DNA of 64,000 bases from Candidatus Tectomicrobia bacterium (GTDB lineage: Bacteria > UBA8248). A program made the translations under genes and the position numbers. The notes beneath the pieces are model-generated. The model was not told the origin of the DNA. It did not search any database and worked only from the letters and a program-made list of their open reading frames with translations. The DNA is taken from positions 62,001 through 126,000 of the forward strand of contig JACPUR010000017.1 of the NCBI GenBank assembly GCA_016192135.1, given 5' to 3'. Below are positions 3,059 to 51,757 of the stretch, one piece after another. The first letter of the stretch is position 1. The number at the start of each line of letters is the position of its first letter.

Positions 3059-4342
3059 ATGCCGTTCCGCACCGAGCTCTACATCGGCCTGCGCCACCTG
3101 ATGTCGCGCCGCAGGCGGGGCTTCGTCTCCCTGACCACCTGGATCTCCATCCTGGGGATCGCCCTGGGGGTCGCCACGCTCATCGTGGTGATCGGGGTGA
3201 TGTCCGGCTTCGAGCGCGAGCTGCGGGACCGCATCCTGGGGACGCAGAGCCACATCGTGGTGGTGGAGCCGGGCGGGCAGTCGATGGAGGCCTGGCGCGC
3301 CGTGCTGACCCAGGTGCGGGAGGCGCCCGGCGTGGAGGCGGCCAGCCCCTTCGTGCTCGGGCAGGCGCTCCTCTCCTCGCACGGGCGGGTGGTGGGGAGC
3401 CTGGTGCGCGGCATCGACCCCGCGCGCGAGTTCGAGGTGACGGACATCCGCGGCTACGTGAAGCCCGAGGCCATGCAGAGGCTCGCCAAGGAGAGCGGGG
3501 CCGGGGCGGGGGGCCGCGCGGGGAGCCCTCCCCAGGTGCTGCTGGGGGCCGAGCTGGCCGCGAACCTCCAGGTGGCGGCGGGGGACGAGGTGACCCTCGT
3601 CTCTCCCACGGGGGTGGTGACGCCGATGGGGGTGCTGCCGCGCTCCCGCACCTTCCGGGTGGCCGGGGTCTTCCGCAGCGGCTTCTACCAGTTCGACGCG
3701 GGGCTGGCCTTCGTCTCCTTGCGCGAGGCCCAGAACTTCTTCAGCCAGGGCACGGGCGTGACGGGAATCCACGCCCGCGTGCGCGACATCTTCGCGGCCG
3801 AGCGCATCGCCCGGCAGCTCCAGTCGAAGCTGTCTCCCCGCTACTGGGTGCGCTCCTGGCAGCAGATGAACCGCAACCTCTTCTCCGCCCTCAAGACCGA
3901 GAAGACCACGATGACCATCCTGCTCCTCCTGGTGATCGTGGTGGCGGCCTTCAACATCGTGGGCTCGCTCGTGATGGTGGTGATGGAGAAGGGGAGGGAG
4001 ATCGCCATCCTGAAGTCGATGGGGGCGACGCGCGGGGGCATCCTCCGCATTTTTTTCTTGCAGGGAGCCTTTATCGGCATCGGAGGCGCGGCCCTAGGGA
4101 CATCCGGGGGATTGGTCCTCGGGTGGAACCTGCATTACGTGGAGGATTTTCTGGAAAAAATTTTCGGCCTGGACATCCTCCCCCCCAGCATTTACCATAT
4201 CGACAAGCTGCCCATTCACATGACCGCCCAGGACGTTTCCCTGACCGCCATCGCCGCCGTGCTCATCTGCCTGGCGGCCACGCTCTACCCGGCGTGGCGG
4301 GCCTCGCGCGTCGATCCGGTGGAAGTGCTCCGGTATGGCTGA
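3059..4342 (+). CDS. lolC: Lipoprotein-releasing ABC transporter permease (LolC/LolE family)
   Basis: Inner-membrane subunit of the Lol exporter, which extracts acylated lipoproteins from the inner membrane for delivery to the outer membrane. The 427-residue protein starts at ATG 3059, three bases after lysS. It shows the MacB/FtsX-type layout: an N-terminal TM segment (SLTTWISILGIALGVATLIVV region), a large periplasmic domain (~50-270) and three C-terminal TM segments after the cytoplasmic helix (KTTMTILLLLVIVVAAFNIV, FLQGAFIGIGGAAL, LTAIAAVLICLAATLYP). It ends with [17 protein letters not shown], a typical family terminus. One permease gene is present, so the complex may be a homodimer as in many non-gamma lineages. 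The gene overlaps lolD by 8 bases. Confidence 0.93.
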   Translation: MPFRTELYIGLRHLMSRRRRGFVSLTTWISILGIALGVATLIVVIGVMSGFERELRDRILGTQSHIVVVEPGGQSMEAWRAVLTQVREAPGVEAASPFVLGQALLSSHGRVVGSLVRGIDPAREFEVTDIRGYVKPEAMQRLAKESGAGAGGRAGSPPQVLLGAELAANLQVAAGDEVTLVSPTGVVTPMGVLPRSRTFRVAGVFRSGFYQFDAGLAFVSLREAQNFFSQGTGVTGIHARVRDIFAAERIARQLQSKLSPRYWVRSWQQMNRNLFSALKTEKTTMTILLLLVIVVAAFNIVGSLVMVVMEKGREIAILKSMGATRGGILRIFFLQGAFIGIGGAALGTSGGLVLGWNLHYVEDFLEKIFGLDILPPSIYHIDKLPIHMTAQDVSLTAIAAVLICLAATLYPAWRASRVDPVEVLRYG

Positions 4343-5051
4343 GCGGGCGGGGGGAGAGCGGCCCGGCGCGGGTGAGGTCCTGGTTTCGGCCCGCGGGCTG
4401 GAGAAAATCTACCGTCTGGGCGGCGGCGAGGTGCACGCCCTGCGCGGGGTGGATCTGGATATCCGGACCGGCGAGATGGTGGCCCTGATGGGAGCTTCCG
4501 GGGTGGGGAAGAGTACCCTCCTGCATGTGCTGGGGGCGTTGGACCGCCCCACCTCCGGGGATGTGTTTTTGAATGGGGAGCGGTTATTTCAGAGGTCCGA
4601 CACCGAATTGGCCCGGTTCCGGAATCGCTTCCTGGGATTCGTGTTTCAGTTTCATCACCTTCTGCCCGAGTTTTCTGCCCTGGAAAATGTTATGATACCA
4701 GGGCTGCTGGGGGGAGAGCCCCGGCCGGTGGTGGAGGGCAGAGCCCGGAAGCTGATCGAGCAGGTGGGGCTGGGCAAGCGGTGGAAGCACCGCCCGGCCG
4801 AGCTCTCCGGGGGCGAGCAGCAGAGAGTGGCCCTGGCCCGGGCCTTGTTGAACCGGCCGGCGCTGGTCCTGGCGGACGAGCCGACCGGCAACTTGGACTC
4901 CTCGACGGCGGAAGCGGTTTTCGGGCTTCTCCGGGAGTTTAATCAGATGAGCCGGCAGACGTTCCTGGTAGCCACGCACAACAACTCCCTCGCGGAGCGA
5001 ATGGACCGCGTTGTGATCATGGCGGATGGAAAGATCGCTGCCGTGCGGTAA
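4335..5051 (+). CDS. lolD: Lipoprotein-releasing ABC transporter ATP-binding protein
   Basis: ATPase of the Lol exporter. The 238-residue protein has Walker [10 protein letters not shown] (near residue 54), Q-loop [15 protein letters not shown], signature [15 protein letters not shown] (near 156), Walker [13 protein letters not shown] and an H-loop histidine in VATHN. It begins at ATG 4335 inside the end of lolC, so the two are translationally coupled. The stretch 4030-5050 reads visibly less G+C-rich than its neighbours (TTTTTTC, GTTATTTC and similar runs), although the protein itself is a standard LolD. Confidence 0.95.
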
Positions 5052-5073
5052 TTGCCGCGTAAGGAGGTTCTGA

Positions 5074-7521
5074 ATGTTCAAGCGATTTACCGAGCGCGCG
5101 CGAAAGGTCATCATCCTGGCGAGGGAAGAAGCGGAGCATTACCGCCACGAGTACCTGGGGACGGAGCACATCCTCCTCGGCGTGCTGAAGGACGGCGGCG
5201 GCATTGCGATCGCGGTCCTGCAGAAGCTCGGGGTCGACCCGAAGCAGCTGCGCCTGGAGCTGGAGCGCAACCTTCCGAAGAGCCTGAGCGGGCCCGTCGA
5301 GGGGGACATCCCCTTCACGCCCAAGGCGAAGAAGGTGCTCGAGTACGCGGTCGAAGAGGCCCGCCTCATGGGCCACAACTATATCGGCACCGAGCACCTG
5401 CTGCTGGGCATCGTCCGCGAGAAGGACGGCCTGGCCGCGAAGATCCTCGCGAGCTTCGGCATCAAGCTGCAGCAGACGCGCGAGCAGACCATCAACCTGC
5501 TGCGCGAGCCCGTGGCCACCCGCGCGAGAGAGAAGAGCAAGACTCCCGCCCTCGACGAGTTCGGGCGCGACCTCACCGAGCTGGCCGAGGAGAGCAAGCT
5601 CGATCCCGTCATCGGGCGCGAGAAGGAGATCGAGCGGGTGGTGCAGATCCTCGCCCGGCGGACGAAGAACAACCCCGTCCTCATCGGGGAGCCCGGCGTG
5701 GGCAAGACGGCCATCGTCGAAGGCCTGGCCCAGATGATCATCTCCAAGGAGGTCCCGCAGATCCTCTACAACAAGCGGGTCGTCCAGCTCGACCTCGGCG
5801 CCCTCGTCGCGGGCACCAAGTACCGCGGCCAGTTCGAGGCGCGCCTCAAGGCCATCATGAAGGAGATCACCCAGAGCCAGGACGTGATCATCTTCATCGA
5901 CGAGCTCCACACCCTGGTCGGCGCGGGCGCGGCGGAGGGCTCCATCGACGCCTCCAACATGCTCAAGCCGGCCCTCAGCCGGGGCGAGATCCAGTGCATC
6001 GGCGCCACCACCCTGGACGAGTACCGGCGATACATCGAGAAGAACGGCGCCCTCGAGCGCCGCTTCCAGACGGTGATGGTCGACCCGCCCTCGATCGACG
6101 ACGCCATCAGCATCCTCAAGGGGCTCAAGGACAAGTACGAGCGCCACCACAGGGCCCGCATCGTGGACGAGGCCATCGTGGCCGCGGTGCGCCTGTCCAC
6201 GCAGTACGTGTCCGACCGCTTCCTGCCCGACAAGGCCATCGACGTCATCGACGAGGCGTGCAGCAAGGTGCGGCTGGAGAAGGAAACTTTCCCGCGGAAC
6301 ATCCGGGACCTCCAGCGCCAGATCGAGGAAACCGTGCGCCTCAAGAAGGACATGATCGAGAAGCAGGACTTCGAGCGCGCGGTCGAACTGCGTGACCAGG
6401 AGGAGCAGGACCGCGGCAAGCTCGACGAGATGAAGGCCGAGTGGGAGGCCGGGCAGACCGACGACGAGCCGAACGTGACGGAAGATGACGTGGCCTACGT
6501 CGTCAGCCGCATGACGGGCATCCCCCTCCAGCGCATCGAGGAGATCGAGAACGCCCGGCTCCTGCGGATGGAGGAGGAGCTCAACGCCCGCGTCGTGGGG
6601 CAGGAGGAGGCCACGCGGCTCCTCACCAAGGCCGTCCGGCGCGCGCGGGCCGGCCTCAAGAGCCCCCGCCGGCCCATCGGCAGCTTCCTCTTCCTCGGCC
6701 CAACGGGCGTGGGCAAGACGGAGATGGCGCGGGTGCTCGCCGAGTTCATGTTCGGCGACTCGAGCTCCCTCATCCGGATCGACATGAGCGAATACATGGA
6801 GCGCTTCAACGTCTCGCGGCTCACCGGCGCCCCTCCGGGCTACGTGGGCTACGAGGAGGGCGGCCAGCTCACGGAGCGCGTGCGCCGGAAGCCCTACTCC
6901 GTCGTGCTCCTGGACGAGATCGAGAAGGCGCACCCGGACGTCTACCACATCCTGCTCCAGGTGATGGACGACGGCCTGCTGACCGACAGCTACGGGCGCC
7001 ACGTGGACTTCAAGAACACCATCGTCATCATGACCTCGAACCTGGCCGCCCGCTCGATCGAGAAGGGCTCCCCGCTGGGCTTCCAGATGGCGGACGAGAG
7101 CGGCAAGTTCGAGACCAAGATGAAGGACAGCATTCGCGACGAGTTGAAGCGGACGTTCAACCCGGAGTTCCTCAACCGGATCGACGAGGTGGTGATTTTC
7201 CGTCCGCTGTCGAGCGAGGACATCCAGAAGATCGTGGACATCGAGATCGGCAAGCTCAACAAGACCCTCGCGCAGAAGGGCCTCACCCTCGAGCTCGCGC
7301 CCGAGGCGCGGATTTGGCTGGCGAAGCAGGGCTACGACCCCACCTACGGGGCGCGGCCGCTGCGGCGCACCATCCAGCGCCACATCGAGGATGTCCTGAG
7401 CGAGGAGGTCCTCCACGGCAAGTTCCACGATGGCGGAGTCATCATCGTCAAGCTGGCCGGTGACGAGCTGGTGTTCGAGGCGAAGGAAGATTCCCAGGTT
7501 CTCAGCGTCCAGGACGCCTGA
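5074..7521 (+). CDS. clpC: ATP-dependent Clp protease ATP-binding subunit ClpC
   Basis: AAA+ unfoldase that feeds substrates to ClpP. The 815-residue protein starts at ATG 5074 behind a perfect AAGGAGG. It has the double Clp_N repeat (residues 1-145; [25 protein letters not shown]), AAA1 with GEPGVGKT (~206) and VIIFIDELH (~271), a UVR-like coiled middle region ([13 protein letters not shown]) typical of ClpC rather than ClpA or ClpB, and AAA2 with GPTGVGKT (~543). The ClpP-contact loop is not pinned down here. Its position between lolD and bamA is unusual for a protein-quality-control gene. No clpP or mcsAB is in the window. Confidence 0.95.
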
Positions 7522-50935: not shown

Positions 50936-50969
50936 ATGCCAACATGCGGATGCGCCCAGAAGTTGGCAT
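50936..50969. promoter_or_regulatory. Inverted repeat upstream of the second dehydrogenase gene
   Basis: ATGCCAAC (50936-50943) and GTTGGCAT (50962-50969) are perfect 8-base inverted repeats separated by 18 bases. They lie 54-87 bases before the start codon. It could be an operator for a dimeric regulator; no adjacent regulator gene is present. Confidence 0.4.
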
Positions 50970-51007
50970 GGAAATAGGGGTTCCAAGGAACGCCCAGGCT
51001 TATGCTT

Positions 51008-51110
51008 GTCATTCTGAGCGGAGGGCCGAAGGCCCGCAGCGAAGAATCTCGGTTTAAACCGATATCCTTCGCGGAGCCTGGCCTGAGCGAAGCGAAGGGC
51101 TCAGGATAAC
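51008..51110. repeat. GTCATTC-type long hairpin repeat, copy 2
   Basis: Arms GTCATTCTGAGC (51008-51019) and GCTCAGGATAAC (51099-51110) pair, with the inner AGCGAAG..CTTCGC and a central TCGGTTTAAACCGA palindrome. It is located upstream of the selenoprotein candidate. Confidence 0.75.
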
Positions 51111-51199
51111 ATCTTCGCAGAACCCGTTCTGATCGAGGCGGCGGGCTTCCCCGGAATGACGGCTCTTTCGCGTGGCTGACCTCCCTGGAGGAACGACGT

Positions 51200-51757
51200 A
51201 TGCCCGGAAAGCCGCTGGACCACATGGCCGAAGCCACATCGCCGGGCCAACGGCCCATCGACAAGCCCGATCTCCCGAGCCAAGGCTACGTCCTCACCAT
51301 CGCGGCCGACGCCGAGACCATCGAGGGCAAGCTCCACCTGCGCCGGGGCCGCTACGGGAAGTTCGAGGTGCTCTGCGACGAGCCCGAGATGATGGGAGGG
51401 GAGGATTCCCACCCGACTCCCCTCGGCTATATCTCGCTCGGGGTGGGGTTCTGACTCCTCACCCAGCTTGCGCGGTACGCGCGGATGAAGAAGGTGCCCT
51501 TCAAGCGGGCCTCCTGCCGGGTGGAGATGGATTACTTCCTGAGGGGTTCCTTCCTCCGGGGCACGGTCGAGTCGGGCTGCACCGAGGTCCGCACCCGCTT
51601 CGAGGTGGAGTCGAAGGCCCCGCCGGAGGCCATCCGGCACGTGATCCGCATGGCCAAGAAGGGCTGCTTCGCCGAGAATATGATCCAGGCGGCCGTGCCG
51701 CTCAAGAGCTCGATCCGGCTGAACGGGGAGCCCTTGGCGATCGAGGGAATCGGTTGA
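51200..51757 (+). CDS. OsmC-family protein with in-frame UGA, probable selenoprotein
   Basis: OsmC/YhfA-type proteins reduce hydroperoxides through two redox residues. ATG 51200 is six bases after GGAGGAA. The first 84 codons (YGKFEVLCDEPEMMGGEDSH, PTPLGYISLGVGF) end at TGA 51452-51454. The same frame then continues without a break as LLTQLARYARMKKVPFKRAS and on to LNGEPLAIEGIG, stop TGA 51755. In family members the residue between GF and LLTQ is the first catalytic Cys; UGA stands exactly there (position 85). The second Cys is kept (Cys156 in KKGCFAEN). A SECIS-like hairpin follows. Total 185 residues. The alternative is a recent nonsense mutation, which is less likely given the exact site and hairpin. 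Confidence 0.85.
51452..51454 (+). promoter_or_regulatory. UGA codon proposed to encode selenocysteine
   Basis: TGA in frame with both halves of the OsmC protein, replacing the conserved redox Cys. Ordinary termination here would remove more than half of the fold, including the second redox cysteine. Confidence 0.8.
51468..51484 (+). promoter_or_regulatory. Candidate bacterial SECIS stem-loop
   Basis: GCGCG (51470-51474) pairs with CGCGC (51478-51482), with loop GUA; two U-G wobbles extend the stem (51468-51469 with 51483-51484). The loop starts with G and begins 20 nt after the UGA, which fits the described bacterial SECIS rules (stem of 4-16 pairs, loop 16-37 nt from UGA, G in the first loop positions). 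The pairing is read by eye; no folding was run. Confidence 0.65.

Follow-up and report, generated by a model that had tools for sequence, protein, structure and literature searches.

A gene at positions 51200..51757 (+ strand) of the window, the whole 64,000-nucleotide stretch of a Candidatus Tectomicrobia genome that was analysed, carries an in-frame UGA that is almost certainly decoded as selenocysteine (Sec) at residue 85 of an OsmC-fold redox protein of the OsmC_like_Se family. This reading of the interrupted gene, first offered by the first-pass annotation from the DNA letters, is backed by the Sec machinery of the genome, the conservation of the TGA, and the covariation of a hairpin downstream. 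The gene is one that standard annotation may split or truncate. The family to which it belongs is already catalogued; what appears to be new, judging from sequence comparison, is that three further OsmC subfamilies of the lineage bear a TGA at the same alignment column.

The interrupted OsmC frame and its relatives

The translated frame opens with the ATG at 51200, 8 nt downstream from a Shine-Dalgarno-like GGAGG read in the sequence at 51187..51191 (+), and closes with a terminal TGA at 51755-51757. The TGA at 51452..51454 (+) is the only internal stop, and the readthrough product is a protein of 185 aa with U85 (MPGKPLDH...GVGF-U-LLTQLARYARM...KKGCFAEN...EGIG). As had been proposed, two halves of one OsmC protein share a single frame and are parted by this codon alone; both profile matches run across it. 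The Pfam OsmC model (PF02566) spans the TGA as one match (residues 67-169, 50.1 bits), and the NCBIfam model NF041052 (OsmC_like_Se) matches without a break at residues 34-176 (profile positions 2-144), scoring 179.6 bits against a curated cut-off of 95 bits. An AlphaFold model, for which the target protein and 23 relatives served as input, had a mean pLDDT of 92.8, and its best PDB matches were OsmC/Ohr structures. The OsmC fold with its two redox positions is thus found in the target by PF02566, by the model and its PDB matches, and by alignment with PDB 3cje. In that alignment, U85 coincides with the first redox Cys (gCvmTq) and Cys156 (KKGCFAE, 51665..51667, +) with the second (KKGCF), which bears out two further proposals, namely that the TGA occupies the first redox-Cys position and that the second redox Cys is kept. 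The codons TGA-CTC-CTC-ACC read U-L-L-T, that is, a UxxT motif at the redox position. Cys156 is unchanged throughout both family alignments and is likely the resolving Cys.

To survey the TGA among relatives, the 18 genomes of the phylum were searched with NF041052. All 18 contained copies over the cut-off, 72 in total, and each of the 72 has exactly one TGA; direct inspection of 31 distinct copies showed GF-U-LLTQ at this site every time. Two of these copies are further members of the target type in the window's own genome, on contigs C4 and C35. Other genomes were covered by a scan of GTDB contigs with two conserved peptides located away from the Sec site, from which the best 80 loci were kept. 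The TGA was found at the target residue in 80/80 of these loci (79 read by script and one, L142, by eye), and no Cys form at the redox site was present among them, a Sec-to-Cys ratio outside the phylum that refers to the best 80 loci of one scan. According to the record names, the loci come from Candidatus Tectomicrobia, Nitrospinota, Betaproteobacteria/Burkholderiales, Chloroflexi/Dehalococcoidia/SAR202, and Acidimicrobiales, and among named genomes Candidatus Tectomicrobia bacterium RIFCSPLOWO2_12_FULL_69_37 comes closest (87% identical). The suggested comparison of homologues at position 85 therefore returned TGA at the identical residue throughout, not stops at unrelated positions.

The gene is flanked on its 5′ side by a D-isomer 2-hydroxyacid dehydrogenase gene on the minus strand and on its 3′ side by a class I methyltransferase gene. 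In two genomes of the same genus, two Sec-OsmC genes stand in tandem between these neighbors, and the window keeps only the second copy. At 50942-51188, where the first tandem copy is missing, the gap contains repeat-like sequence (tcattctgagcg...gaagaatct) with an inverted piece at 51039-51072. Copy number also varies upward, with eleven target-type Sec-OsmC copies over the cut-off in one genome of the survey (G015).

A SECIS-like hairpin downstream of the TGA

A bacterial SECIS-like hairpin was located at 51469..51483 (+), with the core GCGC-GGUAC-GCGC (51470-51482), on the evidence of covariation and an invariant CGG codon. The first-pass annotation had described a stem-loop with a G-first loop 20 nt downstream; the stem-loop is present and its loop opens with G, but it begins nearer to the UGA, about 15-16 nt past it. 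Folding the region past the TGA, as had been advised, recovers the stem-loop at an ordinary energy: the folding energy of the single target sequence is no better than that of shuffles (z = +0.56) and is insufficient by itself as evidence for a SECIS. The significance of the hairpin comes from comparison across relatives and not from single-sequence energy. Among 42 distinct sequences, 94.4% of the cells of the hairpin alignment are paired (77.8% in shuffles), and 31 cells are changed on both sides of a pair (9.4 in shuffles). The covariation score of 0.368 (0.099 in shuffles) was reached by 0/500 shuffles, counts that are not probabilities because the sequences are related to one another. The signal was lost once the partner strand was slid by one to three bases. 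The compensatory stem variants seen among relatives include GCGC/GCGC, GAGC/GCUC, GGGC/GCCC, and UCGC/GCGA.

The same pattern is visible at the level of codons. The silent third base of Ala94 tracks the middle base of codon 91, with a standard pair in 83 of 84 distinct sequences: GCG occurs with GCG, TCG, or ACG, GCC with GGG, and GCT with GAG or AAG. Arg92 is encoded by CGG in 84/84, which yields the invariant GGU loop, whereas only 26% (172/656) of the other Arg codons in these genes are CGG. As read from these sequences, the pattern reflects selection on the RNA and not on the protein alone. A hairpin soon after the UGA with a G early in the apical loop, the arrangement of a SECIS, is thus recognized here by position and covariation together, not by energy alone, and the OsmC_like_Se family is thereby supplied with a covariation-supported SECIS.

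Selenocysteine machinery and alternative readings

The window's genome (3.92 Mb, 41 contigs, 96.8% complete) was searched for the genes of Sec synthesis and insertion, as the first-pass annotation had recommended for selA, selB, selC, and selD. The first three were all found: selA (540 bits) lies on C15 shortly before selB (389 bits), and a tRNA-Sec with a UCA anticodon lies at C28:5467-5559 (74.8 bits). The fourth, selD, was not found over the cut-off in the 96.8% complete assembly, although it is present in 14/18 genomes of the phylum (290-348 bits), including both other genomes of the same genus. Each of the 14 phylum SelD genes itself bears one in-frame TGA. Weaker selD-like matches at C13 and C38 were identified by their NCBIfam scores as thiL and purM. 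In several genomes of a sister genus, a Sec-OsmC gene adjoins a SelD-like gene of the AIR-synthase superfamily that has no TGA (L202 around 3739-5409, L203), and this neighbor is possibly a functional partner.

The absence of selD from the assembly permits a reading in which the species has lost the gene, makes no Sec, and obtains from the target gene only a truncated protein of 84 aa. We consider this very improbable, given that selA, selB, the tRNA-Sec, three copies of the family, and a second OsmC type with TGA are all retained, and that 14 relatives, among them both of the same genus, possess selD; the three other selD-less genomes of the phylum are only 70%, 79%, and 91% complete. A gap in the assembly explains the absence most simply and is likely, though not proven, because the genome is 96.8% complete and because the 12-kb selD contig of a same-genus relative (G001) found no long syntenic match in it, only short repeat or paralogue matches.

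It is less probable still that a genuine nonsense mutation or a sequencing error accounts for the TGA, splitting an OsmC gene of the Cys form and leaving a pseudogene. Beyond the stop itself, such a reading has in its favor only an ATG 30 nt past the TGA that opens a frame of 90 aa, and it is refuted by the conservation of the TGA across several phyla, where the phylum copies and 80/80 other loci carry it at the identical residue. The halves on either side of the TGA are both conserved, moreover, and the hairpin covaries at silent positions. General reassignment of UGA to a standard amino acid (e.g., Trp or Gly), or its suppression, would fit the occurrence of in-frame TGA in several genes of the genome but is extremely improbable when the target gene's own terminator is TGA, the TGA sites align with Cys and not with Trp or Gly, and the genome has selA, selB, and a dedicated tRNA-Sec with a UCA anticodon.

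Decoding of UGA-85 as Sec is thus the reading retained. The fold, the position of the UGA and its conservation, the hairpin covariation, and the selA, selB, and tRNA-Sec genes are read in the sequence itself, and from them we infer Sec insertion as well as a tentative catalytic cycle (substrate, resolving residue, and reductant). SelB and Sec-tRNA would read UGA-85 as Sec, with insertion directed by the hairpin in the coding sequence just 3′ of the UGA (stem GCGC/GCGC, loop starting GGU), and Sec would take the place of the catalytic (peroxidatic) Cys of OsmC. Ohr/OsmC proteins pair a peroxidatic nucleophile with a resolving Cys and are recycled by a dithiol reductant. By analogy, a hydroperoxide or another oxidised compound is most likely the substrate that the selenolate of the target reduces; Cys156 would then resolve the oxidised Sec as a selenenyl-sulfide, which a dithiol would re-reduce. 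The same analogy slightly favors the more specific assignment of the protein as a hydroperoxide reductase.

Further OsmC subfamilies and relation to known selenoproteins

Three other OsmC types with an in-frame TGA, about 17-24% identical to the target, were found in the lineage, and none of them has a match over the cut-off to any NCBIfam model. The second type, AG-U-LTGN (AG-U-LTGNMGGAL), is present in the window's genome at C14:10521-10988 (L006:1348-1815) and in 16/18 genomes of the phylum, each time with one TGA; a tblastn search of plasmids returned no matches to it. The third, AG-U-GLxTLLG, occurs in other genera of the family (L191-L193, L197-L199) and scores 59 bits to NF041052, below the cut-off. 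The fourth, LG[AS]-U-M[MT], occurs in relatives (L194, L195, L196) and scores 37 bits to the same model. In all four types, the TGA falls in the alignment column that holds Cys in the Cys-form paralogues of the genome, and a hairpin with a G early in its loop lies 3′ of the TGA, covariation having been computed for the target type only. A Cys relative of the fourth type, 50-54% identical to it, is encoded in the window's genome (L002, C17:159098-159469), and the hairpin is absent from its DNA. Because this hairpin-less Cys relative resides in the window's genome, an exchange of Cys and Sec is indicated within the fourth subfamily. Taken together, the alignments suggest that the lineage probably has Sec in place of the catalytic Cys in four or more OsmC subfamilies, three of which have no NCBIfam model over the cut-off and fall outside the list of the 2026 review. 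If so, the phylum is unusually rich in OsmC selenoproteins, a single genome having as many as 11 copies of the target type, and would offer a setting to study repeated Cys-to-Sec replacement at a single site. The occurrence of same-site Sec in several OsmC subfamilies of one uncultured phylum would bear on the reasons for the exchange of Cys and Sec at a peroxidatic position and on how readily it takes place.

The first-pass annotation had hinted that an instance in this genomic setting was undescribed, a suggestion of novelty that does not survive the existence of a curated NCBIfam model and the listing of the family since 2005; for the same reasons, the target is of a known kind. Our literature search found no paper that joins "selenoprotein" with "Tectomicrobia." Sec-containing OsmC-like proteins have been reported from marine metagenomes, as the annotation had stated: three sequences with a UxxT motif from the Sargasso Sea in 2005 (PMC1088965) and five in the GOS survey (PMC2398784). 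The OsmC-like selenoprotein also appears in reviews of 2022 (PMC9312934) and 2026 (PMC13188914), the latter of which lists one OsmC entry only (PMC13188914).

The target matches NF041052, "OsmC-related (seleno)protein," over its full length and far above the cut-off, with Sec at the first redox Cys; it simply adds one more member, from a Tectomicrobia-related MAG, and nothing breaks its membership. With the Sargasso Sea and GOS proteins it shares the OsmC/COG1765 fold and U-x-x-T (U-LL-T in the target), a likeness of fold and motif, although those proteins, unlike the target, come from marine metagenomes. The two-Cys Ohr/OsmC peroxidases (E. coli OsmC, 1nye/1qwi; TM0919, 1vla; Ohr, 1n2f) have the fold (Foldseek E values of 1e-6 to 1e-10) and the two redox positions in common with the target but are only about 12-20% identical to it, and the target has Sec for their first Cys. 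The closest solved sequence relative, PDB 3cje, is a Cys form without Sec; it has CxxT where the target has UxxT, and GCF surrounds the second Cys in both.
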